64,000 nt of DNA, taken from NCBI RefSeq assembly GCF_032854445.1, contig NC_088301.1, positions 35,761,187 through 35,825,186 of the forward strand, in the 5' to 3' direction. The position numbers and the translations under genes are program-made. This document shows positions 1-63,268 of the stretch, piece by piece. Position 1 is the stretch's first letter. Each line of letters starts with the position of its first letter. This DNA is from Liolophura sinensis. Lineage: Eukaryota; Mollusca; Polyplacophora; Chitonida; Chitonidae. Below the pieces are notes generated by a model. The model made no database searches, had not been told where the DNA came from, and saw only the letters and a list, made by a program, of their open reading frames with translations.

Positions 1-665
1 AAGCTGTTTACAATTTCCTGGACTTTGACACTGACCGCCCACCATTCTCAGTGTACGACGTGAAGAGCTGTTACGCAGAGGAGAACCGACTGAAAATCAA
101 AATGAGATTCCCAGGTAAGCTAAATACTTAGTTTTAGTTCCAGATGTGGTCCACAGTAATGTGTTTTTTGTTTTTTTTTTCAAAATATATGTCAGAAAAA
201 TAAACAAAAGGGTATAAAATATTATATGACGTCATGGGCGCTTCAGAACTTGTCCAGGTCACAGTGATAATGCACAAGAATGAATTGTGATACCTGCAGT
301 TACTAGTTTGTGTAGATAGTATGATTATAGACTCAAAATGATGCGATTTCAAGAGACAAAGAGCGTTTGCTGGTTTATCTGTCTTCCCAGCCGTGAAGGA
401 AAGTTAACACCTGTTATTTGTATATTTATATCGATTTTGAGTAAATGCCTTTCATTATCAGTGCAACTGGTCTGAAAGTATTTGTTTTTTACTTTTAAAG
501 TGTCATACTCGATCGAGGCGGCTGAAGTTCTCCGCCTGGAGTCACAAATACAGCTAGCTGAGGTCATGCAGATCTCCCCAATCCGGCTTCAAGACGTGGT
601 ACTGGATTATGACAATGCTGACATGTATGTCACTGTGACGATACTTGGCCCTCCTCCACCAGGCG
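1..665 (+). CDS. Gene A exons 1-2: end of first LolA-like region
   Basis: Exon 1-114 enters mid-exon and reads AVYNFLDFDTDRP, matching gene B at 20728-20851 (ATYNFFDFDEEHP). Exon 501-665 matches the ISPIRxQ exon of the other copies and ends with the same proline-glycine stretch before a phase-1 donor. Together they are the last two exons of the LolA-like region of module 1. The intron 115-500 shows no other feature. Confidence 0.8.
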
Positions 666-3600
666 GTAAGGCTATTTAGCTACTTGATAGTTAACACTAG
701 TTGATAGTTAACACAATATTCAATGCTAATTAATAGACATATCAGGTTTCGGAGATACGACAACAAAGTGACTGATTGGTCAATGCATTTGGAGAAATTA
801 CTGCTTTTGCGAATGATGCACTAAACAATTTCAAATTAATTAAAGTAATTAATAGGCTTTTGCCCCATTCTCTAACTAATTTCAGTAGGCCTCTCTGCAT
901 TCAACGCTGTGTCAGTATCTATATTTAACATATTTATATACACTGTGATACAGAATGTGTCCCAATAAGATTTTTCCACCGGTTTTGTCGTCAGCGGAAT
1001 TCACGTTTATTCCAAAGAAGGAGATTGTGAAGGAAGATGACAAAACAATACCGGATGTGACAGATCCCAACCAGTGTGCCCAATACTGTGTGGAGGAGAC
1101 GGACTTCACATGCAAGAGTTATGACCTATGTAAATCTGATAAGTCTTGCAGGCTTAGCAAAGCTCACATTGATGACGGCAAGGCAGTTTTGGTGGATAGC
1201 AAGTGTAATCACTTTTCAAGTAAGTGAAAGAATGTGTGGTGATTATGATTGAAAATGTTCATTATTTGTTTGTGTGAAGGTGTCAACAAACTAGGGCGCA
1301 TCCTAATGATGGCCTCGAAAGAATTACACTCAAATTAACCGAAACAATGTTAAAATAAATAAAACACAATATTTCAGGACAAGAGGCTAACCCACAAGTT
1401 GTAAGCGTCTAATCATAAACATGTATGTTTAATGTTTTTTTCTCTTTTCTGAAAAAAATATTCCATCGAGGTTAAAAAATCCATGATCATCTTAAGTGAA
1501 GGGCGCTGGTGAATACATAATATATGTCTCACATTTTTTTCTCGTTTCTTTTACATAGTTTTGGTGCTTCAGCCCAGTGAATACTATGTAAATAAGGTTT
1601 ACTGGCAAAACAAAAGCTGCTGTCATTTCTCTGCTAATTACTTGCACAGGAACGGTAGACGGATCGTACAGTCCACAGACACCTTTACTGGACGCCTATG
1701 GGGTATTAAGTCAGGCGGTGTACAATCGGGAATACACTATGGAAGTGCCACTCATAGAGAATGGACAAGTGAGTGAATTTTCACTGTCTTATCTGATGTA
1801 TTATATAAGCTATTATGCATCGAGCTACATGAACACCTGGAAATTCCCAGTCACGACTTGATTCTTAGGCTGAAGCTACGGAAATACGCTTCCTTATACT
1901 AGTACTCCATATACCAAGAAAAGAAAATTTTCAGTTTTAACATGCCTTTATTCCAACTGTTATCACTGTATTTGAACAGCAGTTTCTTTCAGGTGTAGAG
2001 ATGCATAAGGTATAATAAAAATAAAAACTTATCCTTCTCAATTTTTACATCGTTGCATTCCTTCTACGGTTTCAGACTGTTCCCATTCAAGCTGTTGAGG
2101 TACAAATTGTGTATGGTGAGTACCGCTAATAGTAAGCACAGGTAGGTAAGATAACTCCGGACACTTGCCATTATTCTAAAATTGTTAGTTCCTTAACTCT
2201 TGATATTGCTAGTTCCTTGATATAAACATAATGCTAAATAATATTACAGAAGTACAAACCGTATTGAAATTTCTGTGTGAGTTTGAGTATCAAGATTTGA
2301 TAATATTTCAAATCTTCTATTTTGTCATGGTTATAGGGGAAAACATTTTGATCTCCTTTCAGTCTGTAGGATCTTGCAAATAGTTATCTGGTTCAAGTAA
2401 ACCACAAATTTATGCTACAGGTCATTTATTCAAGAGTGATGTCCCCTCTATTACTGGCCAGTATTTCTACCGGCAGGAAATTGCCATACCTCAGGTGAAT
2501 TTGGTGGAACAAGCCAATGTAAGTACCAACACAGATATTTGTTAACATGAAGGGACAAAGCGCTAACTGCTAACTAGGACTGCATAAATAGCCGCAGTTG
2601 CCAACTGACATGAATAACGACACGAATAACGAGGCTTAATCAGCAGTTCCCTTCCCTCATGTACTTGACAGCCTTCGATAAGCCATATATTCTGTATTTC
2701 GTAAAAGATAAACTAAAGAAATAATTAATCAGATCTGAGTATAATTTCATAATACTATATGATGACCTTTCGACTGCATGATATGTATACGTTTTCAAAA
2801 AATACTTATTTATAAGGTTGATAATGACTGTTTCAAAACCATGATTTCACGGTGAAAAAAATGCGGGTTAACTGGTGACATTTGAGCAGAGCCATTGACA
2901 GTGCATTGGCTCTATAAACACATCTAAGCCTATGTGATTAAAGTTTATTCTTTTTTCTGGTTAACAGGTGTGGTATGATTCGGCCTATAAACTGGTCCGA
3001 TTCGATAAGAGAGAAACCACAGCTAAGCCTCCATTCTATAGTACAAATCCAATGTCCTTCATTCATGATTTCAATACAGGTATGTTTGGCGAATTTCTGT
3101 AAAATTCAAATTACCAGTTCCAAAACCAGTCTAAGCTCGCCATGCTTGTCTTGTGCGTTTGTAACTGTTGCCAGTTTAATCGACGTTGTAATTCTACTAT
3201 AATAAAAGTTGCCCTGGTTGCATCATTCAGCTGTAGCTATGGCCCCGGTTAACCGATTGAATAGATCACGGGATTTAAGTTAAGATGTTTGCATGATACC
3301 TGGCCTGGTTGGTGGCCGAGTCTGAGCACACAGCTTTCCTCCATCTATAAATCATGTATGTGAATCGTTAACGCTTAATGAAATAAATAAATAAATAAAT
3401 ACTATAAAAGGGAGAAATATGCTAACTATATTCTCCATTCGGCTTCTGTTGGTATTTGGTTGACGTATAAAATTGCTGATAATGTTTTATGGGATTACAG
3501 GCATCCAGTACAGCATTGACAAACTGTTAGGCAACTGTTCAATGTCAGCCATACAGAATGATACTTTTGACACGGCGGCAAATCTCTCACTCAAACTCAG

Positions 3601-6600
3601 AGACGGATCTTTTGTATCAAGGATGAAAAATCCGCTGGAACTCTTTTACTTGGATAGCAGTTACAAACCAGCTGGCCAGGTAATCTAGGTGCCTTATGTT
3701 AAGGTTTATTATGAATGGTAACCCTTCATTTCGTGTCTGACCTAATTGTAATATTTACAGCTGGTTTTATTGTTGTTGTCGTGTTTTTACTTTGGTGTGG
3801 AGATTTTTATCCTGCACGTCTGATACATTATATAAATCTAGTAACATTTTTATGACCAAGTTGTTATAGTTTTAAAACATATAGTATTTCCGGACATACA
3901 CTTACAGCTTAACCAATGATTTTATTGCGAATGGTTATATTAAATTCAAGTATGGACAATTTCTATAAATTTTTGTGATTTTCTTAATTTCATTGTTTCA
4001 GAGAGATTTATTTTTACGTGTTTGACACAAATGTCTACAATTCAATAACTATGGTTTTGTTACCAACAAAAAAAAATTATGCACATAACGGCTTGATGAT
4101 AATAATTTGTTGCCGTTTCATATATGTTTCAGCGAACGGTTCGTGGTGTACTTTGTGACGTGTTCGAGGCTACGAGGACAGATTTCCGGTTACCTGGCAT
4201 TGACATGCAGCTTAACACTACATTTCAATACTTCTTTTTGGCAGTATGTATATATGTAATACTTTTAAACTATAATCATGACGTCTGACTATAGTTTCTA
4301 TAGCTTCCGCTTTCGACAGGGAATAAATGAATCTCTAATTCTTTATTTGTGAAAAATCTCCTTAAACGTGTATGCCAGTGTTCAAATCTACATTTTCTAT
4401 TTGTTTCAAAATGTCAGTGGCTTTCTAACAATTTGATTTCATTTCTAAGCAAAACGATTATCATAACTTTTAAAGAAAAAACATATGTGCTATCTGTAGG
4501 ATAATTGGGATTTAAGTTAATAATTGGAATATTTTAATGGGAAGTGGGAGTTGATGAAAGAACGATTACAACCAATTCCCCGTGCAATGCTGCAGGATGT
4601 GAATAAATGTCGTCTGTTGTAGGATAGCTGGTCTGAATTATCGGATTCTACTAGGTCATCTGATCAAGACGTTCCAATACGGTTGGATATTGTATCTCCC
4701 TCCGTAAGTTAGAACATTTCGTTACATTTTGCAACGATATTCTCCACAAAGCAATTCTGTGGATTCTGATTGGATTCAGGCACGCGATGGAACAATCTGC
4801 AACTGTACAAATCACTGTGAGAACTCTTTTTCCTGTATTTAATGGTCATTGTGAGGTCTTTTTACTCATTCACTTTTGTTTGTTTTTTTATTTTAATGCA
4901 CAGCTACCTATATGTGTGAATGTATTTTGTAGGTTGGATTCCTGGCAACTTACAGCTTCTTCGACTTTGATGAACAGCACCCAGACTTGAAAAACTTTGA
5001 TGTTGGCGCATGTTACAATGATGATAAAAAAATTCGATTTCAAGTACAGTTCAACAGTAAGTTGATTCATAACTGGACAACTGTTGGCTGTGTGGTAAAT
5101 GGCACATGACTTGTAATCGACTTCAGTTCACTACAGAAACACGTGTGTAAAAATACCGCTGGTACCATATATACTACTAAATATAATTCCTAAATCATGG
5201 CTCCGCTTCTAACATAATCATAGGGTGTTTCATTTGAAAATGTTGATGAGGTATTTTTCAGGTTATATTTCAAGACTGAAACCTGATCAATTTCACATAT
5301 CGGTTTTGCAGTGTATGGTCAAGATGATTTATTTCTGCAGTACGCTTATAATAATACTTTAAATTAGACCACGGTCAAAATATTAACCATATCTTTTCGA
5401 TATTCGCTAATGAAAGAATTAAAAACTACATAGAAATTTTCTTAATGAATACCATTTCGTCCTTTAAATCGTATAAGAGGAATCAATAACATTTTGAATT
5501 TATGATCAGGCCGCGTTTCCTGCCCACAGATACCTACCACCCGTACCTGGACAGCACTCGGGCATACTTTGAGATGGCAGTTCGCTTGACTATGGCTTCT
5601 GACCTAGAAATTACCACACTGAGAATACAGGACAGCCGTATTGACTATGACGAGAAGAGCGTTTACTACACGGCTACTCTCCTGGACCGAGCCCCTCCAT
5701 CTGGTAGATAACACATGCAAAAAACTAAAATCAAATTTTTAGTATCCTAGGACACACCACTGGGCTGAAATCAGAGCTAAATGTTTTTTTAATACTTTGG
5801 ACAAACAGAAGTAATCTTGAGCTTTTGTTGGTCGTATTCATGTTTTTATAGAAATTGTTTGATTTGTCATGAACAGAAACAGCTTGAAGGTGCATTTGAA
5901 AAATCAGTCGTCATGATCTCAGGTCTTTATTATCATAAGAATTGCCTGCAATGGCCATTGATTATTTATTATTATATATTATAGGTACCAGACAAACATT
6001 TTCACCCTAAGTGTAGTGCTCTGCTATTCCAGCCGTTACAGTTTCTTGTTTGTGATGGTTGTAGCTCAATACGTGTTAACTGCTGGAACGCGCAGTCAGT
6101 TCAAGGATGACAAACAGGTGAAAGGCGTTACCAATCCAGATCAGTGCGCTGTATATTGTTCCCAGGAGAGTACTTTCCCGTGCAACAGTTTTGACTGGTG
6201 TCCCAACACACAAACCTGTGCTCTCAGCAAGCGGCATGTAAGCGAAGGACAACTACAAGAAGAAAAGGCATGCCTTCATTTCTCCCGTGAGTAATCAAGG
6301 GTTCCCATTTGCATTGGGCAATGACAAATTAATTTCATGGTGGTTGATGACTGAACAGGCTAAAGTTAGGGCCGACCTGCACACGTTGGCGGTTTCTTAT
6401 AATGTGGGCTAACATGAATGATCGTAACATAAGACTATTTTTTGTATTCTTTAAGGTGATGTAAATGCTCCGACTAAAGTTGAGATAGAACTTTCCGAAT
6501 CTTGGGACGCATTGAGAGATATTGTATATAAAGCCGCCTTCACCGTCAAAATCCCATATGGCAATAAGGTTTGTGGACATAATAACGAGTGCAATGAAAT

Positions 6601-9600
6601 CATACATATTTAGTTTATTTTTCTTCAGTCGGCTCAGTCTATTCTTAAATTGCACGCAGACAGCCAGAGACTCTGCGAAAGTACAGTGTCAATAAAGAGA
6701 TACAAATTTGAAAATTTAGATGTACAGAAAAAGGTAACCATTAGTCCGTGAAAGTGTATTAGGTTCCCGACGTGCAAATTTCCATAATAAAGTCATATAC
6801 ATGCATGTTTCAATAAAACTTTAAAATAAACTATGCATGGCAATAATATAATTATAATATAATTTTCATCGAGATGAATGATTGTTAGACTCAAACATCT
6901 GTTTTCATGTATACGAAAGTGTTCATCAGCGTACAGTATCCCCTATTTCGTGTTTTCGTCCTAGCTTTACCCTTTCACGGCTGTTTCCATCAAAGATATC
7001 CTTTTCACGGATGGTCCAGCAGTACTCCAAGAAGGTAAACAAAAACTTCATACCGGGTTACGTTCTAGTCGGAAAAAGTTTATACGTATGCGAAAACCGT
7101 TTATCCCTTACCTTGAGAACTACATATAGAGAAGAGACGATTAATGTCACTGAAATAAAGTGACGCTCTATTTCTGCTTCCGCTTGCACAAAGCAATCGT
7201 TGGCTAACTTGATTGTAACTACCAAGGTGACACATGTTAAAAGCATATGTTGCCATGGTAGTTAACGTCAATTTAGGATATGGTTGCTTTATCCCATTGT
7301 TCGAGAACGAGAGCACGGCGAATGTCTTTAGTACTACGAGGAAGACGCAGTTTAGATACGACTCAAATAATGCGTTGGAGGCACTGACAAGCCCCAAGAA
7401 AGAAATTAGATTTTTATCCTAAAATGTAACAGTTACGTTCATGAAGGATCGAATGTAAAGTAACATTTTCATGCTTGACCCGTTTTCATTTGCTAGAAAA
7501 TAACATCAAGAAGTTCAAAGTGCAGAGCACGAACACTGCCATCAAAGTCCCAAAGACCCGCCTGCCCAAGCTGTCTGTAGACGACTGTGCCACAGCCTGT
7601 ATCGCTGAGGAGACCTTTAGTTGTGAAGGGTTTGACTACTGCTTCAGTGACGGAGATTGCTTTCTAACCGATAGGCACCCAGACTCTGTTCCGGCCAACT
7701 CTACTACCCTCACATCTTTGTGTGATCTTTACGCACGTAGGTATTCTGAGAGTAGAGTGAAAATAATAACAAAACGCCTTTTTCACCAATCTGGTGATCA
7801 AACGTGATTTAGAGATAGGTCTACATTATCTTAATTATCGTCTAAATTGGGGACTGAGGTTGTTTATCTGGACTGTTCTCTATTTAACGGCGTTAATTAA
7901 TCAGAACACAAGGAAATTTATTATGGACGACACACTTTTTCATTTAATATCACCAGATGCTTCGATGCTCATCTAAAGAAGTGCATAACCCTTATGTATT
8001 TCCTGAAGTTTTATATGCAATCAAAGGAAGGTTTTCATAACATTTCGTAAGAATTTCAATGAGCAGTGAGACTTAACATAGGTAAACTTAGGTAAACTGA
8101 CAAGAAGAGGATTTCAACGATAAGGTGTAACTATTTTCCGACTATCACACAGTCGTCGCTGCTTTGTCTTTACTCTCCATGCCGCAGTTTTTTGTATTGT
8201 ATACCTGCACACGCCACCATGTTCCCCAACATTTGGTCGCTTTGCATGTAAGTTAGGTAAGTTTTTTGGAGTCTAGATGCGAAGCGGACAGTCCCATGAG
8301 GACATTTCTGAGGTGGTGAAAATTGTCACCGATTTACTGATGAAGTTCCAGTTGTGTACCGCAGCAGTAAGTTTCAGCATCTCTGTAAGGTTTTATTCTA
8401 TTTGGATATCGTTATTTTGAAGCAAAATACTTAATGCATAAAATACGTGAGATACTTTACAATAAAATTATAGTTTTGTTTCTTTACACTCTTTAGCTAC
8501 AAACCACTACACTGCTCTGATATACAGAAATTAGGTTCAGTATTACAGGTTTGCTCTCGCCGGAATCAGAAGAAATTCATTTCATCCACTACGTTACAGC
8601 ACATTCATCTGCACTCCATAAATGTAGGTCCTAATAATTCAACAATGACATCGTTTAAAACCTAATGTTTTGCAGACGATAGTAACAAATCTGTTGGACC
8701 CACCGTTTAACACCACTATTAGCTGTGTCTCAATTTCACTGAACAATGCCTCAATACCAAAACCTCGCCGCTTTAAACCCATGAGTTCTACTTCTTAAAC
8801 GTGATGAAAACACAACACTGGAGTATTTCTAATATCACTGCAGTTTTTATCTTATTCTGTTTATGTTGCTCTTTTTTAAATATTTACTTGAACTGTTCGA
8901 ATAAAAACCTAAGGTAAACTGACAAGAACTCGGTCACGTGTGATTGTTTGCCAACTACCTCTGAGACAACTTGTAATTATTTTAAAGGAAACTACGTAGA
9001 TGACTTTACAGTGACGCCAGGCAACACGGTACTCCAGACGGGCGCCAAAACGGTAACATCTGTGTCTACACCTAACGATTGTGCCCGATTGTGTGAACGA
9101 GAAACCGGATTTGTGTGCAAGTCGTTCGACTTCTGTGGCCAGCTGCAGCGCTGTGTTCTTGGAAAGAAGCATGTGTTTGATATTCCAGTCAGCGACGTAG
9201 AGGTCAATCCACAGTGCAGTCATTATTCCCGTGCGTTGTAAACTATCTTATGTTTTACGTTAATGATGGCATTTCGTTTCATTTCGTACCTGTATCATGG
9301 ATAATTTTTCCATGGACTGAGACAAATTGCAATATGTATTAATAGGCTCTGTTTAAAATGACCTTACGTTTCAGGACGCTACGTGGACGATTTTAAACTC
9401 TCCTTGGGGAAGATGATAGTCTTCAAAGATAACTACATCATTAATGGCGTGAGTGGTGAGGAGTGCGCAAAACTGTGTGTAGAGGAAGAAAGTTTCAGCT
9501 GCAAGAGTTTTGACTTTTGTGCCAATACAACCCAATGTAGGCTGAGTTCGGCTAACCTTGATGGAATTGGACAGGTTACCATCCAAGACAGCGCATATTG

Positions 9601-23102: not shown

Positions 23103-23187
<85 letters not shown>

Positions 23188-27410: not shown

Positions 27411-29029
27411 CCAAGGACATTTTCTCTCTCTCCCATGACGTGGCCTACGTGAAGATGTTGTTTTTTGTTTTGAAATGTTTTCGCGTACAGAGAGGGGCTT
27501 TCATATTGAATGAGAAAATCTTAATATGTGAACGACACTTTTAGGCAACAGTGGTCTCAATTCAGTCTGCTTCTTCCAATATTACGTGATGTGACATAAT
27601 ACGTCCTGATCCAACAAAAACGATGTGGTATTTTGTCTTTGTGATTATCCGGAAATGACACAGGGCTACGTATCCTGGTTGCTCTTCTGTGTATGACGAA
27701 ATGTTGACATTAAATATAGTTATCACTCAATAATTGAATCTGGCTAAACGTCCGAGTAACTGCTTGTAATGTCCAGTATCTCTCTTATCATCTACTTTCT
27801 TCTAAGCTGTACAGCATGGCAGCAGGGCTTTATCTCTTTTCCTACTTAGTGATTTTCGTGCCCTGTATTTCATCCAAGTTTGAGAAAACCTATATGAATA
27901 TGGGAAGATGTGCAAAATCGTAGTTAAGCAATGTAATGTATCTTATGATGTGTATGTGTTTTTTGGCGAAGTAAGAAACATTTGTTGAATTTGAATCTAG
28001 TCTACTTAGGTGTAAATTTGCGCTATAGGATAGAACTGATTTTAAGCCCAGTTAGGAGAACAGATATTAAAACTGCTTTTGAAAGAAAAACGTGAAGAAA
28101 GTTGGAAAATGATGTTCAGTCTTTCCTTGTTATTTCATTTTGTTGAAATATAGTTTCCATTTCTCACCTCGAAGGTTTCCCGATGGTACATCAGGACACA
28201 GAAAACATAATGGAGTTTCTTTATTTTGCAATGGCGAATTTGTTCCAAGTTGACTTGACTGTTGTTCTCTTACAATGAATAAGTATTATGATACCAGTTT
28301 GCCACAAAACGACTTCGCAATCACAGGAATGAACAACAGACTACATAGCTTGGGTTCGAATAACAGAAATGGAACTACATTTGATGAGATATTCTGATTA
28401 GAATTGTTTCATAAGCTTTCATCGCTTGCCAAGAAAAATTTTGGATTCGAAATTTTTGTAAGCAAACATGGCCCATCAGATTAACAATTTGGTCACAGTT
28501 TCATCTGTTGGGATGTGAAGTTGAACAATTTCTTATATAGATTAAATATGCGAAAAGGTAGTATTTTGAGTAGTTGGATTTCCTTCTGTGATGCCATCGG
28601 TATAACTACTGAAGTTAATCATCTTATTGCACAAGGGATATTGTATTTTTAAGAGTTAACCTATCCGTAATTACGTAACATGACCAGTAACAAGTGAATT
28701 CATACAAGATTATACAGTGCACGATATAAATCAAAATTATGGTCGTGTTCAACTTTGTGCTTGATGAAAACCAAATGTAGCTTGTGGGAAGATACTCTAC
28801 CTGCCCGTGTATGTGAGAGACCTGCAGAAAATAAAGGCGCGTCCGAGATGACATATCAATCTATATTCGCCACGTCTTCACATTGGCCATGCTCTGTATA
28901 CATCCAAACATTCAACACACGGCACTATACGGTTACTGGTAGGTACTTGGTCTATTACAGTATTTTTGTGGTATTGTACAGTAACTGAGCAGTTCTGTGA
29001 GATAACAGAACATTGCTTTTCTTCTCTTG

Positions 29030-36000: not shown

Positions 36001-39000
36001 TCATAGATCATTTAGCAAGTACTTACATTATAATAAGGGGGTAATAATGTTGATAATTGACATGGGGGGCTCCGTGGCCGAAGGAGTTAGCACGACAGCA
36101 CGGCGCAATGGGGTCGCTGTGAGTTTCAGCTCATGCTGGCTTCGTCTCCGACCTTACCTGGAAAGATCTGGCGGCATTCTGCGGATGGACGTGGATTTCC
36201 TCCTGGTTTTGCCCGGTTTTCTCCAAGCATAATGCTGGCCGCATTGGTCGTATAAGTGAAATATTCTTGAGTACGACGTAAAACACCAATCAAACAAATA
36301 AATAATCGACATGAAAAGATATCATTATACATTAATGTCTTTATCTTGCATGAAATGGGTGAGTTTAACCATGTATATGTTTAATGCCGTGTTACACGAC
36401 AAGTTGTGCAATGTGTAAGTAGCTGTAAGGTAAATCTGACATAATTCGCATGTTTAGTCTTTTTCTTGACATACTCTTTGCTTCATATTATACATTGTCC
36501 ATACATACAGTTTGCTTCGTATGTTAAAGTTGAAATCTCATAATTTGTTCCCAATTTTCATTAAGACTCCAAAAGGTATTGTGTGTCCAGACCGCATTGT
36601 TACTATGGACGTACCCAAGCTGACAGGGCAATACTCGTACAGAGAGGAAATCATCTTCCCCAGCGACGCAGTCCTTCAAACGGCAGACGTAAGACTGCAT
36701 TGCTCTCATCATGAATTATAGTTGTTGTTGAGTGGAATGATGGTTTGTAGTCGAAATAATAGTACCGCAGTAGCATTCTCAGGTACACACATATCTTTAC
36801 AACGCATTTATTAACGGATTCTCCATCTTGACGTTAAAATAAAGGTTCATTCATTACCGGTAACTCAGATACTTTAACATATCTTCGTCAGGAAGTCATG
36901 GCTTCGAATTGATCTAATCGTATTTCATTAAATATTATATTTGCCGTTGTGTATGCACCCAGTAAAATTCAGCGCTAAGTTTCGTTTTCACACATCACTT
37001 GTAGGTGTGGTATGATTCTAACTACAAGCTCGTCCGGTATGACTACAGAACTGAGGAACCTATGTCGCCATTTTACACTACAAACCCACTTTCGGAAATA
37101 CACGATTACAATACAGGTAAAGATTTACCCCGTTATATAACAACACTACTACGACTGACTTTACTTGTATAGAAAGGCGCAACATCGTACTCCATTTACC
37201 GTCTGATAGCAATTTATAAAGTAGAATCTGACAATGATAATAAGAAAAACTAAGAACAATAAAAAAAATCCCAGAACAATGTTCTCAAAAATAAGCTACT
37301 GATAGCAGTTTAGCAGGAAGTCACAAGAAAAGCAGCATTGTAATTGATGAAGTATAATATCTGAAGTCATGTTCTGAAATTTTAGGTGTTTCCTACGCCA
37401 TCGACAAGGTACAAGGCAACTGCACCATGACTCCTCTGGAAAACAACAGCTTTGATGTTTCCTTGAATTACTCACAGACTAACCATGGTCAGTATGTGGA
37501 ACAAATGCGTTCATCTCTCGGCCTCTTCTACTTGGATGACAACTATTCCTACGAGGGGCAGGTAATTTTGAGAATTTTGTGTTTCATTTCTTTTCATTTG
37601 TATATTCATTCACGTTAAATAAGTGTGTTCTTATGACACAGATAAGTAGGACAAAATCAGTATGGTATTTAACGTTCCCAAGGTTTTTATGCACACGTAT
37701 TTTATTCCGTTCAACTCTGATATCTTATATTACTTTTTCATAATAGTTTGGCATTAAAACTTTTGAATTTATCGGAACCATTGAGCTACCTTTCCTGATT
37801 TTAAAATACGGATTCTTATTCATTCTTTACATATCTCTTGTTTTTATGAACAAAAATGAAAATCTCACATTTACAAGAGAAACGGTGTTTTTTTCCGGTT
37901 GGATTATTTCAGTGTAAAATTTAATCTTCAGAGAACAATAGCTGGCATTGTGTGTGACGTCTTCATTTCTAGACGAACCGACTTTATTCCTGATCCCAGT
38001 TTTGGAATAGTCAACTCAACATTTGAATATTACTTCTTGGCGGTAAGGTAACACATTTGCTAATATATTTGTGACAAGCCAATAGACATCATTTGATCTT
38101 TCCCTACCGTTGAATCGTGTTAACGCTAAGGTTTATCTGATTGCCATCCCATATATAGTGCCTTATGGTGTACATGCATGTTAACACATACATGACAAAT
38201 TGTTTTCCGACCGATTAGTTCCTCAGTGTTTTAATACACGTAACTCGTCCAAGTCTGCTTCTCTTAGTATAAAGTTGTGCTTTTACATGCATTTGACTTT
38301 CTTGTCTCTGTAGGAGGATTGGAGTGAAATTGCTCAAACAGGACTGGATGAGGGAACAAGGATTCCCATTCGACTGGAAGTCAATACATTTGACGTATGT
38401 TTATCAGTGGAATTGATTAAGTACATGTTCTCTAAAATCATTTTCTTGTGCGTTCGTTTAAAATCTAAATCCGATTTAGGCCTATATCACTTACAAAAGT
38501 GTACCCACTGAATTCTTTTATCGGCTACCAGTTATCTGATGTACATCATCCTTCTAACTCTGTGTTGAGGACTATCGATAAAGCAATGTATCACTGTCAT
38601 CAAGATACCTTGGTCCTTTTAGGGTCACATGTTCTACATTTCTGCATGCACCTGAAGTACCGATGAGAATTTCTGACGTGTACATTGTCTTCAAAAGCAT
38701 GACTTCAGTAATATGTAATAATTATTTTAGCTATATTATTTCTAACTTTATGTCAGACCTTAATCGTTACAATGCCTTAATCATTGCTTTTGCCCCCAAA
38801 AATTTTAAAAATGTAAAATCACGCCAAATGGGGCTTTGAGTAACTACAGGATTAGTGGATTGATTTTGGAATAAAAAGACGGGTGGTGAATAGGGACGTA
38901 AATACCAGAAAAGACACAGTCCATTTGTAACGATCTTTCTGCGGTATATGAAAACGTATCTCATCTTTTATGTTTGGGCCATGATGTCAGCAATTAATAA

Positions 39001-42000
39001 TGGCATTTCTGTTATATTAGGACGGATATTACGCTGTCTACAACTTCTTTGACTTTGATCAAGAGCATCCAGACTTGAATAATTTTGACATCACCCCGTG
39101 TTTTAACCAAGATCAGCGAATTGACATGCAAATCACATTTCCAGGTTTGTGTCATATCGGCATTCTGTTCAGTTTATGTCATACAGATACACATATTTGT
39201 GTTTTCCTTTTTTTAAACAAATGCATTCGTGTTTATTCTAAGTTCATGTACTACGATTCTTATAATGTGATTTCCATTTAGTAACAAACGTATCCTTATT
39301 TAACCATGTGTGTTTCAAATTGTTTATCTCTCTTTATTTATTGGTGGTGCAAGTGGGTTTATCAGGCCTTTGAGACAGACAAATTGACACATTTAGTCTT
39401 AAACATGAGTGAGAAGATAGATGTCAGAAACATGATGATCAAATGATTTATCAAATGACGTGTGTATTCTTACTTTTGACTTTCTGCTTTATCAGGTGAT
39501 TTTGTTGACGACGTGGAGGACCATCTAAAGTATTTCGAACTGGACACACGCTTGAAAATTGCTGAGCTAGCCAACATATCCCCAATACGTGTACAGCATT
39601 CGTCAGTCAAATACAATTATGGGACTATATTTTACAGAGCAAGTATGTTGGAGACCGCACCCCCTACAGGTAAGACGTGTTTGTCATGCGCACATATGGC
39701 CTTTTACGGATTACAGATTTGTGATTTGAAATATTCAGTGTTTTCGTGCCAATGCCCCTTAATCATGTGCCATATTTTTACCTATCAAGCTTGTGGAAAC
39801 CAGTCTATATGTGCACCAAATACATTTTAGCCGTACTAAAGGCGTGACATCAGTTGTCTGTCTTGAGCTCTGGTGAGCTCATCGTGGCGAGGTCAGTTCC
39901 TGATTTTTCCCTCCACTAATTGTCCAGCAACCCGAAAGGTAGTATGACTAGATACAGTGGTAGGGTACGCGACGCCAAGAGGACGTTTTGCTCGTGAGTG
40001 TTTGTATGCCACACGTAGGAAAGTTCTTCAGTAATTTGCCAAAGTCTTATTCCTGACACTCCGGTTTCCAGACTTCATAAACCTTAACTGCTATCCAAAT
40101 AAATCAACGATCTGAAAATTCCCTTCGTATGCTTATTCTTTCCCTTTTTTCTTTCAGCAAAGTTCCACAAATACTCTGGACAAGTGTTAGAATACAACAA
40201 CGACAAGACACTTACTGACGTAGCCACGGAAGACGATTGTTCGTACCTGTGTTTGAGTGAAACGTCCTTCAACTGTCTTAGCTTTGACCTATGCCCGCAG
40301 AAGAGGATCTGTTACCTGAGTAAACTGGCTACAGAAGACGGTACATTGGTTGGCAACGACGTGTGTAGTCATTATTCAAGTAAGGGAATACAATATATAA
40401 ATACATTTAATAGACAAGTTAATAAATTAGTTTTTATACAAAGGTGAGCAGATACGGGTATGAATTGGTTTCTCAAGCTTGGTTGAAGACAACACAACAA
40501 AAAAAACTCTGTACATAATTGTTAATTTACAAGCTTTCCACACTAACATGTCACCAAATTTCTATCATATCTAAATACATGCGATCCCTCCATCAAGCTC
40601 ACATCTGAAACGGAATCAAATGGAATTCCTCCTTTTCCCGATATTCTCATCACTAACAGCAATTTCACCATGACAACAACTATCTACAGAAAACCTACCA
40701 ATACTGGATTGTATACCAGAACCCTGATGAATAGAGCCTGGCACCTCAGCAGCTCATATGGATTATTCCATTGTGAGGTACAACACATTAATGCTACCTT
40801 AATACGAATCCTATACACTACCGACATTACTGATCGAACTGTGCCACATTCGTGAACAAGGGACTCAAACCGAAACATGATATATTAAAATATTTCGAAA
40901 CAAATCTATAAGGTTGCCCTATCTTGAACCTATTACAAATCAAATTCGCGGTGATATAATTTTTTTAACAAATCCATTTCCTGTGTAAATATTGTTTTAA
41001 TTACTAAAAACAAATGTGTCTTTTTTCCCTTACAAGGACAAGGCAGATTGTGAACTGAAAAACATAGATGTACATAAAATATGTTGTGGTGAATGCTCTG
41101 CTAGCTATGTGGACAACACATACAGACACACCCAGGATAGATTACTTGAACATGACATTAGTATAGCTCCCATCACAAATTTCCTGCTGTTGGTGGCCAT
41201 CGTCTCAAAATAGGTCACAGTCCTTTCAATCCTATACATAAAATTCTTGCGAAAACATAGCCTCAAACACGCACGTTCGTGTGACCCACGTTGCATCACC
41301 TGTCAGGTATCATGAGTAGAGCGCGCGCTGCACCTGTGTGACTCGCGTCAATCAAGTGTCGTCTGGAAAAATTGTCTGGCTACAATGTCAGAGAAACCCT
41401 TCTGCCAGATAGGCACAAGTTTTGCTGAATCAAGATGGTTTTCTCTGCGGCAGACAAGGAATTGGCCACCTTTTCAAGTAAAACAAGGTAGAACATCATT
41501 TTGAACATGTCCGGAATATGCTTTTTTGGACTCTATTTTGATTTTGGTCCCATGAACAGAAATCTTAAAGGATGAAATTGAAATTTGGTTTGTATACTTA
41601 GGACATAATGGCTTTTGAGTGTGTAAATTTTTAGAAGCTGACGTAAGAGGGTTTCGGAAATATTGAGTGTCGAAGTTCGGCCCATTTTTTTTATGCCCAC
41701 CCGACATACCCTCACTATGTTTACAGCCATTCATAGCATGCAGTTGTCACTTCCGTAATGATGGAATGATGGAAGGTTGTTTTTAACAAACATATGACGT
41801 TACTAAAAACTCTAAAAGTATCAAGTTTCTTTCAATCTGTGTTAGACTAAGGCCTTGTCTCAGGGGCATATTTGAAACGAGGCATATTGTCTCGTTTGGC
41901 ATATTTATTCAAGTATTAATGTGGTAAACAAGAAAACCTTTGCCAATTCGGCTTATACGGTATTGCGTGCGAAAAGGTACCACGTGTGTAATTGTGCGAA

Positions 42001-49779: not shown

Positions 49780-49785
49780 TTTATT
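49780..49785 (-). terminator. Polyadenylation signal of gene D
   Basis: TTTATT on the plus strand reads AATAAA on the minus strand, about 770 bases beyond gene D's stop codon. Confidence 0.5.
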
Positions 49786-57700: not shown

Positions 57701-60700
57701 CATGCCAAGAACCTTGTTGAAATTTCGCATGCTATAATGAGTGAGGAAACCTAACGGTGAAAGAGAATTAACGGATGAATACTTAACCTTACCGAGAGAA
57801 AGTAGAACTCAAATATCGTTCTGTACGGGCCAGTGGTTCCCGGCACGACGAAATCAGTTCTGTTTGATACATACAAATCACAAAGTTTGTCCTCAATAGT
57901 CCTCTGCAAAATTAAATGTTCTTGGTTAGAATACCACATGAGGGACAATAAGATTTTTATTTAGACTCACTCGTCCTGGACACAAAATCTAGAAAGCCAT
58001 CATACGATTACATGTTAAACCCTCCCTCTAGATGTAACCTAGCTTTGAACTGAAATTTTCTCTATTAATCCTACATTTTCAACGCGCTTTAGTCTACAGA
58101 TTCGATAATCTTGATAATATAAATGGGAAAGAGACAATCTCTAAAACCGTGATCACATTGCAAACCCCATGAATTACCGGCTTTCTACATAGTATTTCTA
58201 TATGTATAAGTATAACGTGTTGAATTCAAAGATCAGTCCTTTGTCATGCATGCATAAATGCAGATAAAATAAAATCTCACGGACAAAAGTATATTTAACA
58301 GGCGTTTACAGGCTTTCAGTTTTTTTTAACTTTCATGTTTTCTACTTTGGCTAAGTTCTTCTGATCGGAGGGTGTCGTCTTTAATGTATTCTTAGAACAC
58401 TGGTGTGAGATAGACAAGGAAGGAATCCAATCGTCGCCTACCTGGCCTACATAGTCGTAGCTGTCATCCAGAAAGAACATCTCCTGTGGATTCTTAATAC
58501 GAACTGCATATCTGGGATCTGAAGCCGCGCTGGGTGACTTTCCGGTCTTCTTCTCCGTTACGTCAAACGCTGTAGCTTCAATTGGAACAATGGAGCAGTT
58601 TCCTAGCAGTTGATCAGTGACATACGCCACGCCTAAAAGAATAAAAAAAAAGATCCTAAAGTATACTTTGACTATATAGTCAAATGGATCGCCTAGAATC
58701 AAAAGCATGGCAAAAACAGTAGGAATTCTCTGAACCTTAAAACTGAGAACAAAAATGAACAGTATATTTTCGGCAGGCCTTTGTTGCCGACTCCTTATCG
58801 CCAAATCGCAAAGGCCAACATAAAGCTTTCTTTATGTTGAAGTTAAATAGTATTTATCAGTCGTTTTTCAAACGACTGTTCTATGTGTTCATATTCAATT
58901 TACATATAAAATATTCCGAGCAAATACTCACAAAACTAACCTGTGTTAAAGTCATGAATTTCCGAGAGTGGGTTCGTGGTCCAAAATGGCGCCTTGGGCT
59001 GGCTGTTTCTGTAATCCCACCGTACCAATTTATATTCTGAGTCGTACCAAACCTTCAATATATTATAGGAGTACAAAATCATCAATTTTTCTTGGGGAAC
59101 TGCTTGTAGCTCGAAAAACTTTACACCTAAATAATTAAGCTTAAAGGTTAAAACTAAAAATTATAAATGTTTACATGAAAGTAAGAGGAGCACCTGCTTG
59201 TGGCAGGTCAGAAAAAATTATTCAATGAATAGCAATTAAACAATGATGGTCCTAAATCTTTACTAAGGCGAAATTATGGTTCATGTACACGTGAAAAATG
59301 TTTGAGGAACATCAGCATTCGAATGGTCCAAAGGCTATTCCTCTATATTGTGTTTAATAACTATAGGTTTCTTTACGCCCTTCGTTGACTTATTAAGACA
59401 AGGCATGAGCCTATATATATATATATACACGTTACCATAAATAGATAAAGCCCTGAACAGTTTGCTCGGACAACAGTTTACTAAAGGTACTTTTTTACGA
59501 ACACTTACATCTGCTCCCATCACTAGGTTGCCATCAGGTACAACAATCTGTTGTCGGTAGAAAAATTGACCCTTGAGTGTTGGTAAAGGTCGTGTTTTAT
59601 TTCTTCCCGGGCAGATAACACCTGGAGGAGTCTGCAAATAAGTGCTAGTTTACCTTAGTTTTGAACCGTTATACTCTGTTTAGAATTCTGTAATAAACAA
59701 TTTCGTTTATGTGATTAAGGTCCATCCATTATATGTAGAATGTTCATTCAGTCACTGTCCTATTACGTATATTTCAAGCGAACTTAATAGAGAACTGTAT
59801 CTCCTAATAATTTAAAATTGCATGTATACCTGTACATGTTGGGGTGGCGAAATTCATAACTTTAGCAGTATAATTCAGAGCTCTAAGTATAATTTTCAAC
59901 CCACATTCACAGAAGTGTGTTTTCAGATCAGGCCCGTATGCAAAAAAATGCCATGTTAAAAAACAGCAGGGGCTTTATCATATTAAGCATTGTTTAATGC
60001 ACATTAAATATTCTCCCACGATATGATGGTCACGCTCGTCATCATACCTCGTATTTGTCGGTGTCGTCATGTGTAGAACCGTGGTCAGGGCGGTAGTGAT
60101 AGAAATCATAAACGTGATGGAAGTTTTTAGAGCTGCCGTCATCACCCACTGAGACGCCCTGTACGTCAGCTCGCACTGGAATTTGATCTTCGTTTGACGC
60201 TGTTGACCAATTCATGGCTGTAATCAAGAAAACAGCGCTGTTAACCCCCCTAGACGGTACACATGCCAACTACTCCCAATATTCAGGCATGCATGTATTT
60301 ATAGTTTAGTTTGATTTGCCATTCGTTCTCACTTTACTTATTTGATTGGTGTTTTACACCATACACAAGAATATTCCACTTACATGACTGCGGCCACATT
60401 ATGATGGGAGGAAACCAGACCGAGCCCGGGGAACCTACGACCGACCGCAGGTTGCTAGAAAACCTTCACACGTACGGCTAGAGAGGGAGCCAGCATGAGC
60501 TGAACTTACAGCGACCCCAATGGGCTTCTGCATTACTACGCCGCGCTGGCATGCTAACCCTCTCTACCACGGAGGCCACCGTTCTCATTTTAAGACACAG
60601 CCCTCTCTGCCCCATGTAAGTGATACAATTCTAGTCACCTTCTGTATTTTCCATGAAGGAGGGTTTGAAATTGGTAAACGCCTGTCTAAAGACAACACAT

Positions 60701-63268
60701 GCTACTCACGTATAACCCATCGTGCACCAGAAGAGTCCACTTCCACAATGCTTTAGGAATGAATATATAGATTCAGGTATAATTTCACTTCACGCTGTAG
60801 CATTTTTCCATAAAAGAGTTACAAGAAATTTATTTTCTTATTTATTTTTTGTGAAAGTGAACACTAGCTAGGACAGACAAAAAATGAAACTGGTATCAAG
60901 GGTTGACCCAGCTGTTTTTCTGTATGTCATTATGAAGGCACATAAGTTACCTGTGAAAAAATAATCCACTGTGAACGTACTCTTCTTCTCTGGCCAGTTA
61001 AGACAAGCCTGCCAGTGGTCAACGGGAACCCCTCGCACATAGGTCGAGCCTAAGTATTTCTGCAAGGAACTTATTTTGATCACATACCCATCACCTAATA
61101 CCGATAAATTTAATTCATTTATTTATGTACCAGTATTCATTGTTGTTTTACATGTACTCAAGAACATTCCACTTACATACGGCAGCGGCCAGTGTTATGG
61201 TGGAAGGAAACCGGGCACCGACAAATTGAAAAAATTGAACGATAATTAAAATCCTGTAATAATTTTGTGAAACTTAGCGTTTACTTTATTCTGTAAAGAT
61301 ATCCTCTGCATGTACGTCAGGTAGCTTCATAACGTTGGGTCATTTACTGATAGTGGGGATTTTTGTGAAAGTGGAATGCGTCGAAACAGACAATGGAATA
61401 GCAGCCGTCAACCGATAAGGACGTTCCAGGCCAATAATCGCAAGGCCAAAACGCAAAACGACGTATAACACAAACCACCAAAGAACTAAGAGAGTAGTAC
61501 GAAAATAGGACGGAATCATGCAAAGAGAAGCAGTTTGGAATGATGTTGGAAGACGCAAAATATGTTTTAGGCGACTGAGTAAAATCAGTGTTCAAATCGT
61601 GTATATATTAGTTGTCGATAACAAAATATGTATCTCAGTTGCGCTTTGATTGCAACTGTTCATATATCCAACGTGGCGATCTAATTCAACCTGATGAACA
61701 GTTTCCCCACACAGACAATACTTTGGCCATGAAGTACATGAACTGAGAACTTTCTTTTTTCCTGTACAGAACTGTCCACTAATTATACTAATGATCCATA
61801 CATACTCTTAATACATTTGCATCCATTGCTAATTTGATTTCTTAGATGTTACAGGTCAAAACTTACCCGCTTTTATGTTATTCAAACATGACATCCAAAT
61901 GATCTAATCATTATATACATCATCGTCTATTTGTGAAGTCATATACATTAAATTTACAAAATAGAGACCTTCGTTATGTACCACTGAAGCTTTTTTCTAG
62001 AACAGATCAGAATACTACTGTAACTTGGATTCCCTTTACAGCCGTCAACTGTATTTGGTCAGATGTATACATCCAGTTTTAAATATACAACAGAACAGAC
62101 CAAGATACCGTTGTTTATGAGATATAAATCAGATATTTGTATTCAACTTAAGAAAAAGCTTATAAAGCTTTTAAAACACAGCTTATACCTCAAAATCAAT
62201 ATGAACAAGTTGGAGATCTTGTTTTGGAAACAGCGATGATATTCAAACACTATTATACTTCAAAAGGGCATATATAGCATGGATAAGATATTTTATAATG
62301 CCTGTTAGATGTCCAGACACTAAACCCTGTTAATGTTTCTAATCTACTTACCTCGCCAAACGTCTTTCCAAATCTGAACGCCCCAGCGGAATTGTACACG
62401 TGAACCCGTCCATTAGAAACTGTATCCCCAAATAGGAATCTGTTGTCATCCGTGGATAGCTGAGTAACAACACAATCCTTCAGATCTAAGAAAGGACAAA
62501 TGACACAAGTCAGAATGCTTTATACATTTATCTCACCCTTTTCCAAGAAATGCCCTGATTTTTGTTGTCTTTAAATAAAACTTTCGCTGTTTCGAGTTTC
62601 ATCGAGGTATCCACATTCTTTTGGTGGTAGAAACTTCCATATCCATAATAAGTGCAGATTTTGATTCCTGTGTCAGTTACACACAGAGGGAGAAAGAGAA
62701 AAATCATTTAATCGCAAAAGAATACATAGAGGATTAATTTCACTGGATAAGCTGTCCTTGCATCCACATCTGACAAATCAAATCCATAATCTGACAATTC
62801 AATTTTGAATTCGAACTTCAGAGGAACTGATTATATGGCGAATCAGGAAGGCGATGTAAAATGTTATAGGCTCTGCCATCTCATTCAGCCAATACATCAC
62901 GGTCGACCCTACTTTCAGATGGATACATGTATTTGCATCTAGGTGTTTTCAAATGGTGCCGTGTACACCCCACCCCACCCACCCACCCAACTGCTCATCA
63001 AACCACCGGCCCCCACCACCCAATCTATCTACAATTTCATGCAGCATATTATACCCTTGATGTTTACCTGTGATTGTAAAAAGCTCGTTGGTTCCGTAAC
63101 TGTAGACCAGCGTCACCGTTTGGTCTGCGTAGTTCAGGGTAATGGCTGCTTTGTTTAAATAGCTATCGTAGTACTCGGATGAATCCAAGGTGTATCCCTG
63201 CTCGATCATATTCGCCTCCACATGAACATGATAGTCCTGTGGGAACTGCGGCAGCGGTGGTGCTTTAC
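50556..63268 (-). CDS. Gene D: LolA-like/PAN type I membrane protein (signal exon not found)
   Basis: Nineteen exons on the reverse strand join to an open frame of about 963 residues ending at the stop 50558-50556. They correspond one for one to exons 3-21 of gene B, with identical lengths for PAN1-4 (222, 237, 243, 237 nt). The first exon seen (63268-63068) starts in phase 1 after an AG acceptor, so the signal-peptide exons should lie at higher coordinates; none was found up to 64000, where retroelement sequence fills the intron. D is more diverged than B is from C, keeps all PAN2 cysteines and is inverted relative to the other three genes. Confidence 0.85.
51444..51520 (+). repeat. Dispersed repeat copy 2
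   Basis: CCTAGCATCATGGCTTAAGC, AGAATTAGGTAAAA and TGCAGTGATGTTCACTG match 42785-42869 in gene C, although here the surrounding gene runs on the other strand. Confidence 0.7.
52302..52538 (-). CDS. Gene D: PAN4 domain
   Basis: A 237-nt phase 1-1 exon reading NYIDDFKFIKGR, ECAKIC, TGCLGFDYCGNDTYCRLTSD, SVKNVGQVT and FCNHYSS; six cysteines, highly similar to PAN4 of B and C. Confidence 0.92.
53183..53425 (-). CDS. Gene D: PAN3 domain
   Basis: A 243-nt phase 1-1 exon with NYSSKYTKTPGTVIL, EMCAKLC, FTCKSFQYC, TCALSPTHFMDIP and LCDHYTS; six cysteines. Confidence 0.9.
53573..53660 (-). repeat. SINE fragment, reverse orientation
   Basis: ATTTATTTATCTGATTGACG, AGACTCAAGAATTTTTCACT and TGTACGA match the tail and 3' body of the SINE at 36064-36305 in reverse. 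The head is missing. Confidence 0.6.
53934..54170 (-). CDS. Gene D: PAN2 domain
   Basis: A 237-nt phase 1-1 exon with AKLSQFTSVRNKAL, DDCAAAC, FFCQSFEYC, GDCHLSKRHPGE and NNCDLYSS. It keeps the fourth and sixth cysteines that B and C have lost. Confidence 0.9.
54720..55200 (-). CDS. Gene D: spacer pair
   Basis: Exon 55200-55085 (116 nt) contains AYSILKTLIYKNM and ends IPLPAGK. Exon 54795-54720 (76 nt) reads MKNYRAISIRNNIVRD and ends APTLSS. It matches the gene B pair in order and phase. Confidence 0.85.
55626..55847 (-). CDS. Gene D: PAN1 domain
   Basis: A 222-nt phase 1-1 exon reading AQFHKYNGKVLANNND, NMCANLC, FVCNSFDIC, MCFLSKST and QCSHYSR; six cysteines. Confidence 0.9.
56118..63268 (-). 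CDS. Gene D: LolA-like extracellular region
   Basis: Exons, 5' to 3' on the minus strand, are 63268-63068, 62485-62352, 61059-60951, 60217-60048, 59631-59509, 59052-58941, 58632-58442, 57903-57793, 57241-57161, 56636-56513 and 56291-56118. Blocks are KAPPLPQFPQDYH, LVYSYGTNELF, GAFRFGKTFGE, VRADVQGVSVGDDG, NFHHVYDFYHY, GVICPGR, GQFFYRQQ, VWYDSEYKLVRWD, LLGNCS, FFLDDSYDYVGQ, FEFYFLS, TDWTEE, FYDFNEEHPDLTNFD and ISPIRLQ. The LGNCS exon is 191 nt against 176-179 elsewhere, from a short insertion rich in lysine and serine. Confidence 0.84.
60338..60578 (-). repeat. SINE, near full length, reverse orientation
   Basis: Starts on the plus strand with TTATTTGATTGGTGTTTTAC. The body ATATTCCACTTACATGACTG, then AGGAAACCAGACCGAGCCCG and GGTTGCTAGAAAACCTTC, follows, ending in the tRNA-like TCTCTACCACGGAGGCC. 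It is the reverse complement of the 36064-36305 family. Confidence 0.82.
61114..61222 (-). repeat. SINE fragment, reverse orientation
   Basis: CATTTATTTATGTACCAG, ACTCAAGAACATTCCACTTA, CGGCAGCGGCCAGTGTTATG and GAAACCGGGCACCG match the 3' half of the SINE family; the head is absent. Confidence 0.72.
61418..61689 (-). mobile_element. Retroelement 3' fragment, reverse orientation
   Basis: The reverse strand of 61533-61418 matches 10437-10555 (shared TTAGTTCTTTGGTGGTTTGT). The reverse strand of 61689-61569 matches 63871-64000 (shared AGTTGCGCTTTGATTGCAAC). It therefore bridges the two other partial copies and belongs to the same element. It lies in a gene D intron. Confidence 0.7.
62935..63067 (+). 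other. C-rich stretch beside a gene D exon
   Basis: A pyrimidine-rich run (CACCCCACCCCACCCACCCA) lies just downstream of the 63268-63068 exon as gene D reads. On the minus strand it is a G-rich run close to the donor site, which could form a G-quadruplex in the pre-mRNA; this is inference. Confidence 0.4.

Follow-up and report, generated by a model that had tools for sequence, protein, structure and literature searches.

Candidate surface glycoproteins with paired LolA/EPDR-like domains and PAN modules encoded by a chiton gene cluster

PAN/apple domains are found in plasma kallikrein, factor XI, HGF and the apicomplexan adhesins. The PAN_1 domain and its cysteines are common to these proteins and to the proteins analysed here; however, the latter show no kringle or protease match, and their PAN domains are joined to LolA-like domains. 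Ependymin-related (EPDR) proteins, which include EPDR1 and the fish ependymins, are secreted; their fold resembles that of LolA and VioE and encloses a hydrophobic pocket (PMC6363788, PMC6608618, PMC6280359). The MERP, fish and plant EPDR clades are nearly all single-domain without extensions, and eukaryotic LolA/EPDR proteins are described mostly as single secreted domains or cathepsin fusions (PMC6363788). The EPDR tree holds 229 domains from 196 proteins, and some multi-domain EPDR proteins are therefore already known (PMC6363788). In the 26/29 kDa peptidase, an N-terminal LolA/EPDR domain is combined with a cathepsin (PMC10380794).

We analysed a 64-kb stretch of the genome of the chiton Liolophura japonica (the window), which holds four neighbouring paralogues, A, B, C and D, as originally observed. 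The encoded proteins are probably type I surface glycoproteins in which paired LolA/EPDR clams are combined with a PAN array, the PAN exons having been shuffled onto a PAN-free ancestor. As proposed for the cluster, the 26/29 kDa peptidase combines a LolA/EPDR domain with a second, different extracellular domain, which is a papain-like peptidase where the cluster proteins carry PAN; a Pfam scan of five protein pieces of the window gave no Peptidase_C1 match. The four-Cys profile 1 order and the D...R spacing of EPDR were found in the second cluster domain (D2), whereas the membrane anchor, the PAN modules, the longer Cys3-Cys4 spacing and a Pfam score under the cut-off distinguish the cluster proteins from EPDR.

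Exon chains of the cluster and the repeated block of gene A

Comparison of the window with itself showed repeated exons, with E-values to about 1e-41 among the matches listed. In the protein, the exon order is signal-like exon, D1 (E1-E4), D2 (E5-E10), E11, PAN1, E13 and E14, followed by PAN2, PAN3, PAN4, a stalk exon and a transmembrane/tail exon. Window coordinates are given below, negative numbers lying upstream of the window.

Gene A, + strand: E0-E9, -5250 to -356 (upstream of the window)
Gene A, + strand: first E10, -9 to 114; first E11, 501-665; first PAN1, 995-1219
Gene A, + strand: second D2, 2421..5056 (E5b 2421-2518, then 2968-3079, 3501-3679, 4133-4243, 4623-4703, 4933-5056)
Gene A, + strand: second E11, 5530..5703
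Gene A, + strand: second PAN1, 6065..6286
Gene A, + strand: E13, 6456-6568; E14, 6965-7034 (together the second half of the alpha/beta module)
Gene A, + strand: PAN2, 7497-7736; PAN3, 8988-9230; PAN4, 9375-9614
Gene A, + strand: stalk exon, 10930-11022; transmembrane/tail exon with stop, 11852-11997
Gene B, + strand: signal-peptide-like exon, no ATG, 15049..15154
Gene B, + strand: D1 domain (E1-E4), 15649..17452
Gene B, + strand: D2 domain (E5-E10), 17734..20851
Gene B, + strand: E11, 21226-21399; PAN1, 21886-22107; E13, 22531-22646; E14, 22988-23066
Gene B, + strand: PAN2, 24726-24962; PAN3, 25217-25459; PAN4, 25872-26108
Gene B, + strand: stalk, 26803-26883; transmembrane/tail exon, 27277-27410
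Gene C, + strand: signal-peptide-like exon with ATG, 32922..33015
Gene C, + strand: D1, E1 33873-34070, E2 34507-34640, E3 35271-35379, E4 35783-35940
Gene C, + strand: D2 (E5-E10), 36566..39144, with E9 at 38314-38394
Gene C, + strand: E11, 39496-39669; PAN1, 40158-40379; E13, 42145-42260; E14, 42623-42701
Gene C, + strand: PAN2, 43017-43253; PAN3, 43639-43881; PAN4, 45743-45979
Gene C, + strand: stalk, 46547-46627; transmembrane/tail exon, 47316-47431
Gene D, - strand: signal-like exon, no in-frame ATG, 64424-64319 (beyond the window end at 64000)
Gene D, - strand: D1, 60048..63268 (E1 63268-63068, then 62485-62352, 61059-60951, 60217-60048)
Gene D, - strand: D2 (E5-E10), 56513..59631
Gene D, - strand: E11, 56291-56118; PAN1, 55847-55626; E13, 55200-55085; E14, 54795-54720
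Gene D, - strand: PAN2, 54170-53934; PAN3, 53425-53183; PAN4, 52538-52302
Gene D, - strand: stalk, 51723-51643; transmembrane/tail exon, 50707-50556

Splice-site choice led to a single exon chain, whose phases agree between B, C and D. The initial annotation described four paralogues with matching exon order, phase and length. This held for the phases of B, C and D, whose 18 shared core exons (E1-E18) have identical phases, but not for A, in which a block is repeated; length was equal in 13/18 of the shared exons, the other five differing by multiples of 3. GT-AG borders were present at 82/82 introns in the final models of all four genes. A profile-based spliced aligner recovered the E1-E14 junctions of B with a profile that itself includes B, and those of C with a profile built from B and D alone. 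The E1 donor of C at 34070 has a low score (-3.75) and is the sole in-frame GT-AG option. The reading of the genes as open from start to stop applies to C (32922-47431, 974 aa), which is open from its ATG, while B (950 aa) and D (963 aa) are open from E1 to the stop, with no in-frame ATG in their signal-like exons; the start codon of B presumably lies in an exon further upstream. The Pfam scans, alignments of D1 and of D2, aligner runs on B and the relatives, gene A junctions, tree, synonymous-site comparison, hydrophobicity analysis and Cys counts used a 977-aa version of C, which differs from the final model at the end of E1 and by one shifted residue in E9. One hydrophobic 19-residue segment was observed in each protein, close to the C terminus, in agreement with the single-pass anchor predicted earlier. 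Judged from hydrophobicity, the proteins would carry a signal peptide and a membrane anchor and would be located at the cell surface.

Gene A had been read as a four-PAN paralogue that matches the others. The obtained model instead begins 5.25 kb upstream of the window, at -5250, and its chain runs through E1-E12, a second E5-E12 and then the tail, giving 1358 aa without a stop and five PANs. The upstream start, the doubled E5-E12 and the fifth PAN also rule out that A simply repeats the layout of the other three genes. The E5b acceptor (2421) is in a phase compatible with the PAN1 donor at 1219, and the second D2 has lost the Cys/Arg motif with which E5 normally opens. An unlikely alternative is that A represents two genes or a broken pair, namely a truncated 5' copy (E0-PAN1) followed by a 3' copy without signal peptide and D1. 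This would agree with the weak score of acceptor 2421 (1.5, against 5.0 for donor 1219) and with the second D2 being less similar to the first D2 of A (41% identity) than to those of B and C (47%). Unspliced read-through of donor 1219 also hits a stop two codons on, which makes a short secreted A product possible. However, a single 1358-codon frame extends from the signal peptide to the stop with all junctions GT-AG, only 2421 among the acceptors listed can be joined to the PAN1 donor with the frame kept open, and the residues upstream of 2421 lack the Cys and Arg kept in the nine other D2 domains. We favour one gene A that would later have gained a second D2-E11-PAN1 block, joined via an acceptor whose phase is shifted but still compatible.

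PAN modules and relatives without a PAN match

The PAN domains of all four proteins were upheld by PAN_1 (PF00024) matches well above the Pfam gathering cut-off of 21.4 bits: B, C and D scored 93-99 bits, and the two halves of A reached 52 and 75 bits. All 17 PAN exons of the cluster are phase 1-1, and PAN1-PAN4 group mostly by position. In the genome, at least 64 PAN matches at E <= 0.001 were listed with 150 of 176 candidates scored, 12 of them in the window. E13-E14 was considered as a divergent PAN and ruled out, given that E13 runs on from E11 within one exon in three relatives.

These relatives belong to six tandem-LolA genes located elsewhere in the genome (C2 at 4.53 and 4.55 Mb; C6 at 20.76, 20.81, 80.34 and 80.35 Mb), five of which were analysed, the gene at C6 20.76 Mb being left out. 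A search profile built from the window PANs, which regains 17/17 window PAN exons, gave no match in 3885 open reading frames of at least 25 codons from the genome pieces L001-L018, at E <= 1 and at E <= 10, and PAN exons in the tandem-LolA loci analysed were rejected accordingly. The closest PAN match lies more than 1 Mb away from the relatives, among the matches listed (150 of 176 candidates scored). D1, D2 and exons E11 and E13 of the alpha/beta module (E13 in three of the five) are found as in the cluster, with most D1/D2 intron phases in common, and in three relatives the module is unbroken where the cluster genes carry PAN1. In contrast to the cluster, the E2-E3 intron is absent or shifted, and the module has an extra phase-0 intron. 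In one relative, C6a, a transmembrane-like exon follows the D1-D2-module core, and the putative anchor of the relatives is drawn from this one gene. E14 was not reliably found in the relatives, the C6a candidate lying beyond the transmembrane-like exon and a restricted rerun yielding none.

In the tree, the four genes of the cluster fall apart from the five relatives with a support of 99/98; its root is a midpoint, and PAN gain over loss is therefore not proven. The PAN modules, as phase 1-1 exons, were probably shuffled into an older PAN-free tandem-LolA membrane protein. This addition probably preceded the cluster duplication, with the block repeat of A occurring afterwards.

The tandem domains and their putative LolA/EPDR fold

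The LolA-like region of 500 residues, previously annotated as a single unit, consists of two homologous tandem domains, D1 and D2, and part of the alpha/beta module. The alignment of D1 with D2 by hhalign (93%, E 2.9e-7) scored 51.9, the maximum of 100 column shuffles being 21.5. Among ten D2 domains, five from the cluster and five from the relatives, Cys 91 and 229 are present in 10/10 and Cys 7 in 9/10. Cys 7, 91, 146 and 229 are all present in D2 of A, B, C and D; the first is missing from the second D2 of A and the third from C2a, C6b1 and C6b2. The Cys order of D2 fits EPDR profile 1 (PMC6280359) as an order alone, the last spacing being 83 here and 38 in EPDR. D45...R52 is invariant in 10/10 D2 domains, with a spacing of 7 as in EPDR1 D70...R77, an equivalence drawn from spacing and order. 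Together with the sub-threshold Ependymin matches described below, these features lend the LolA-like assignment indirect support. D1 has just two invariant Cys.

Of the Pfam profiles, PAN_1 exceeded its cut-off, while on the LolA/EPDR side five of the ten D2 domains matched Ependymin (PF00811) at E <= 1, all below threshold; the lowest E-value was 0.0081, and the scores were 13.6-19.1 bits where printed against a cut-off of 32.3. Ependymin matches that do exceed the cut-off belong to other, partly modelled loci of the genome (C4, C6). An NCBIfam search, work on the first exons of the EPDR genes, an Rfam search at gathering threshold and a tRNA scan of the mitochondrial piece gave no lead.

The architecture could be right and D1/D2 nevertheless another Cys-containing domain, in a plain adhesion or matrix protein that binds through PAN. 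We regard this as rather improbable, although several results point towards it. No EPDR/LolA profile scored over its cut-off in the window proteins, and D1 had no recurring family match. BRICHOS, sub-threshold in 2/10 D2 domains, scored like Ependymin on the same stretch of B. PDB profile searches matched no EPDR/LolA structure, a single-sequence search missing even solved PAN structures. Against a two-sequence partial EPDR profile from the same genome, D2 scored 16.4 and D1 18.4, the best of 100 shuffles being 26.5 and 20.1, respectively. On the other hand, the EPDR Cys order and the D...R pair occur in ten D2 domains although cluster and relatives are only 24-35% identical, and Ependymin is the commonest sub-threshold family (3/5 cluster domains, 5/10 in all).

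Age of the copies and proposed role

D2 identity among A-D is 41-64%, D1 identity to B is 43-57%, and synonymous sites are saturated (pS 0.85-0.89, pN 0.28-0.36). By these divergences the cluster copies are old, and the diversifying family suggested earlier is not borne out. Divergent surface proteins in a tandem cluster would suit a recognition system, immune or self/non-self, that diversifies under positive selection on the surface of PAN or of the pocket. Given the small number of copies, their age, their similar structure and the saturated synonymous sites, we consider this very unlikely.

From the N to the C terminus, the proposed protein would comprise a signal peptide, two LolA/EPDR beta-clam domains, an alpha/beta module split by PAN1, then PAN2-PAN4, a stalk, one transmembrane helix and a short tail. 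The LolA fold is a beta-clam of 11 strands, and each clam is expected to hold a hydrophobic ligand pocket. In our working model, the paired clams would capture or present a hydrophobic ligand, such as a lipid or a carotenoid, and the PAN array would engage a glycan or protein partner. Open-access literature searches gave no report of EPDR/LolA combined with PAN, in keeping with the uncommon architecture noted initially. More tentatively, the cluster might represent an undescribed class of animal receptors, with an anchored LolA/ependymin clam pair and an exon-shuffled PAN array, A being a three-clam, five-PAN form.

If true, a membrane-anchored tandem LolA/EPDR protein with PAN modules would widen the known architectures. 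As the genome still contains relatives without a PAN match, the sequence of steps, from the core through the PAN exons and the cluster duplication to the repeat in A, is testable. The cluster proteins are also specific candidates for binding hydrophobic ligands on the surface of chiton cells.

Exon chains of the four-gene cluster

A six-frame self-comparison of the window recovered one exon series repeated four times, which upheld the four-gene cluster proposed in the initial annotation; the cluster is real and well ordered, with an uncommon architecture, and is not an artefact. By choice of donors and acceptors, genes B (+), C (+) and D (-) could each be read as a single chain with identical phases.

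Exon phases in genes B, C and D (x/y: bases ahead of the first/behind the last full codon of the exon)
E1-E4, first putative LolA/EPDR (ependymin-related) domain, D1: E1 2/1, E2 2/0, E3 0/1, E4 2/0
E5-E10, second putative domain, D2: E5 0/0, E6 0/1, E7 2/0, E8 0/0, E9 0/0, E10 0/1
E11-E14, alpha/beta module with the first PAN exon between: E11 2/1, PAN1 (E12) 2/1, E13 2/0, E14 0/1
3' end: PAN2-PAN4 2/1, stalk 2/1, then the transmembrane exon

Exon length was identical in these three genes for 13 of the 18 common exons, the other five differing by multiples of 3. The matching order, phase and length claimed for the whole cluster therefore held for B, C and D and failed for gene A, which carries a second E5-E12. 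Across the four gene models, all introns were GT-AG (82/82, with E1 of gene C ending at 34070 and its E9 at 38314-38394), and the E1 donor of gene C was weak (score -3.75). The frame open from start to stop was borne out in gene C (974 aa, ATG to stop), while genes B and D were open from E1 to the stop only (950 and 963 aa); their signal-like exons, spotted via a common 'PYC' motif, contained no in-frame ATG, and both models therefore lack a start exon. A spliced aligner recovered the E1-E14 junctions of gene B from a profile that itself includes B, and those of gene C when the profile comprised only B and D, with the outer ends off by a few bases.

Several repeats were also observed. In a minisatellite at 29025-29868, between B and C, a 50-base unit recurs about 17 times and longer periods of 99 and 149 are superimposed; a perfect (TA)39 lies at 23105-23182 in the E14-PAN2 interval of gene B. 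Pairs of similar stretches in or beside genes A and D (9991-10206 with 63548-63741; 61604-61699 with 63861-63956) are possibly short mobile elements.

Identity of the paired N-terminal domains

D1 and D2 are homologous to each other (hhalign 93%, E 2.9e-7), their score of 51.9 far exceeding the highest of 100 column-shuffled comparisons (21.5). Among Pfam families, Ependymin alone recurred in D2 with any frequency, always below the cut-off (E 0.0051 in whole gene C, 0.0015 in a piece of gene A); it was found at E <= 1 in five of the ten D2 domains (best 0.0081). BRICHOS scored, also below threshold, in two of the ten, overlapping the Ependymin stretch in gene B, and no Pfam match recurred among the four D1 members.

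EPDR structures are described as having a LolA/VioE fold with a hydrophobic pocket and as binding hydrophobic molecules (PMC6363788, PMC6608618), and the four cysteines of EPDR 'profile 1' probably pair as 1-3 and 2-4 (PMC6280359). D2 has four cysteines in the same order (positions 7, 91, 146 and 229); the spacings of 84 and 55 resemble the 71 and 54 of the EPDR alignment, whereas the last is longer in D2 (83 vs 38). In addition, D45...R52, invariant in all ten D2 domains, is spaced as D70...R77 of EPDR1.

No EPDR or LolA profile exceeded its cut-off for D1 or D2, and PDB searches returned no EPDR/LolA match; the latter carries little weight, since no solved PAN structure was retrieved with the PAN half of gene B either. 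D1 and D2 scored no better than shuffles against partial sequences of two EPDR genes from the genome under study. Elsewhere in it, Ependymin matches exceeded the Pfam cut-off on contig C4 (11.54 Mb) and contig C6 (19.68-19.70 Mb), in genes read in part. The LolA-like N-terminal region claimed earlier is favoured by the recurrence of Ependymin, the cysteine order and the D...R spacing, and has neither a profile match above the cut-off nor a PDB match; on sequence grounds, we consider D1 and D2 to be quite probably of the LolA/EPDR type.

PAN array, predicted membrane anchor and gene A

Each of the 17 PAN exons (gene A has five; B, C and D have four apiece) is phase 1-1, and a profile built from those same exons recovered every one. 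Pfam PAN_1 matched four stretches in every one of B, C and D, plus two and three in two pieces of gene A, confirming PAN domains in all four genes. In the PAN tree, PAN2, PAN3 and PAN4 each clustered by position (supports 99/98, 89/85 and 95/96), and PAN1 of B, C and D grouped together (98/96) with both PAN1 of gene A unplaced; this grouping suggests that the array probably predates the gene duplications. One 19-residue segment per protein, near the C terminus, exceeded the hydrophobicity threshold, in agreement with the proposed single-pass anchor; this C-terminal transmembrane anchor is predicted from hydrophobicity alone. By eye, the helix and strand content of E11 and E13-E14 in the four genes resembles a small alpha/beta module split by PAN1, for which no Pfam family was found.

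Layout of gene A
-5250 (+): start, in the piece upstream of the window
1219 (+): end of the first chain, which runs through PAN1
2421-6286 (+): second E5-E12, in place of E13 after the first PAN1
6456-7034 (+): E13-E14, then PAN2-4, stalk and transmembrane exon

The join at 1219 needs an acceptor of a phase different from that of the normal E5. A compatible but weak acceptor (score 1.5) lies at 2421 and was also chosen by the D2 profile aligned to the region, in which a 13-base leading exon is an artefact; the residues upstream of 2421 are lost from the second D2, including a Cys and an Arg kept by the nine other D2 domains. The 28 exons of gene A read as one frame of 1358 aa with no stop. Read-through past the 1219 donor would reach a stop two codons on; less probably, gene A is two separate genes. 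In the second D2, identity is 41% to the first D2 of gene A and 47% to those of B and C, and it may therefore have arisen when neighbouring paralogues fused, not by a recent internal duplication.

Tandem-LolA relatives and the combined architecture

The searched genome (609 Mb, 632 contigs), in which the window spans C7:35761187-35825186, contains at least six more tandem-LolA genes, at C2 4.53/4.55 Mb, C6 20.76/20.81 Mb and C6 80.34/80.35 Mb, of which all but the C6 20.76 Mb gene were modelled. These five share D1-D2 with the cluster, with most phases identical and the E2-E3 intron absent or shifted; the alpha/beta module is present only in part, reaching E13 in three of five, and E14 is unreliable. 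The window-PAN profile found no PAN among the 3885 ORFs of the 18 fetched pieces (L001-L018), even at E <= 10. In three relatives (C6a, C6b1 and C2b), a single exon bridges the site where the cluster genes hold PAN1, and C6a has a transmembrane-like exon downstream. In the midpoint-rooted tree, the four cluster genes and the relatives fell on either side of one split (99/98), and B and C were sisters (97/96). A gain of PAN in the cluster would be the economical reading, short of proof because of the midpoint root.

Two of the tandem-LolA genes (C6:20763388-20764908 and 20804572-20806093) lie 41 kb apart, with 43 and 44% match to the query, and are perhaps a recent duplication. At C6:80.337-80.355 Mb, two closely adjoining tandem-LolA units may belong to a single gene in which a block is repeated, as in gene A. 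Elsewhere, seven COX1 matches on contig C99 are spaced by about 15.5 kb, as in a head-to-tail mitochondrial concatemer, and contig C632 has one further match. A mitochondrial piece (L019) is readable in the invertebrate code; its genes look like nad3, nad2, cox1 and cox2, in this sequence, an order found in molluscs.

No report of a LolA-like or ependymin domain joined to a PAN/apple domain was found in the open-access literature searched, including the titles and first lines of abstracts that were listed, which agrees with the uncommon architecture noted initially, and neither PAN, tandem, transmembrane nor apple occurs as a word in the main text of PMC6363788. The EPDR tree in that source comprises 229 domains taken from 196 proteins; multi-domain EPDR proteins were thus already known. 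The known EPDR fusion is the 26/29 kDa peptidase (PMC10380794), and PMC10470211 describes a carotenoid-binding EPDR. The cluster is therefore a combination of known modules, undescribed as far as found, and not a wholly new kind of system. With confidence restrained by the unreliable E14 of the relatives, we lean towards a membrane-anchored surface protein with paired LolA/EPDR-type domains and a PAN array added by exon shuffling, whose function, judged from sequence, would rest on a pair of pockets for hydrophobic ligands alongside the PAN modules.
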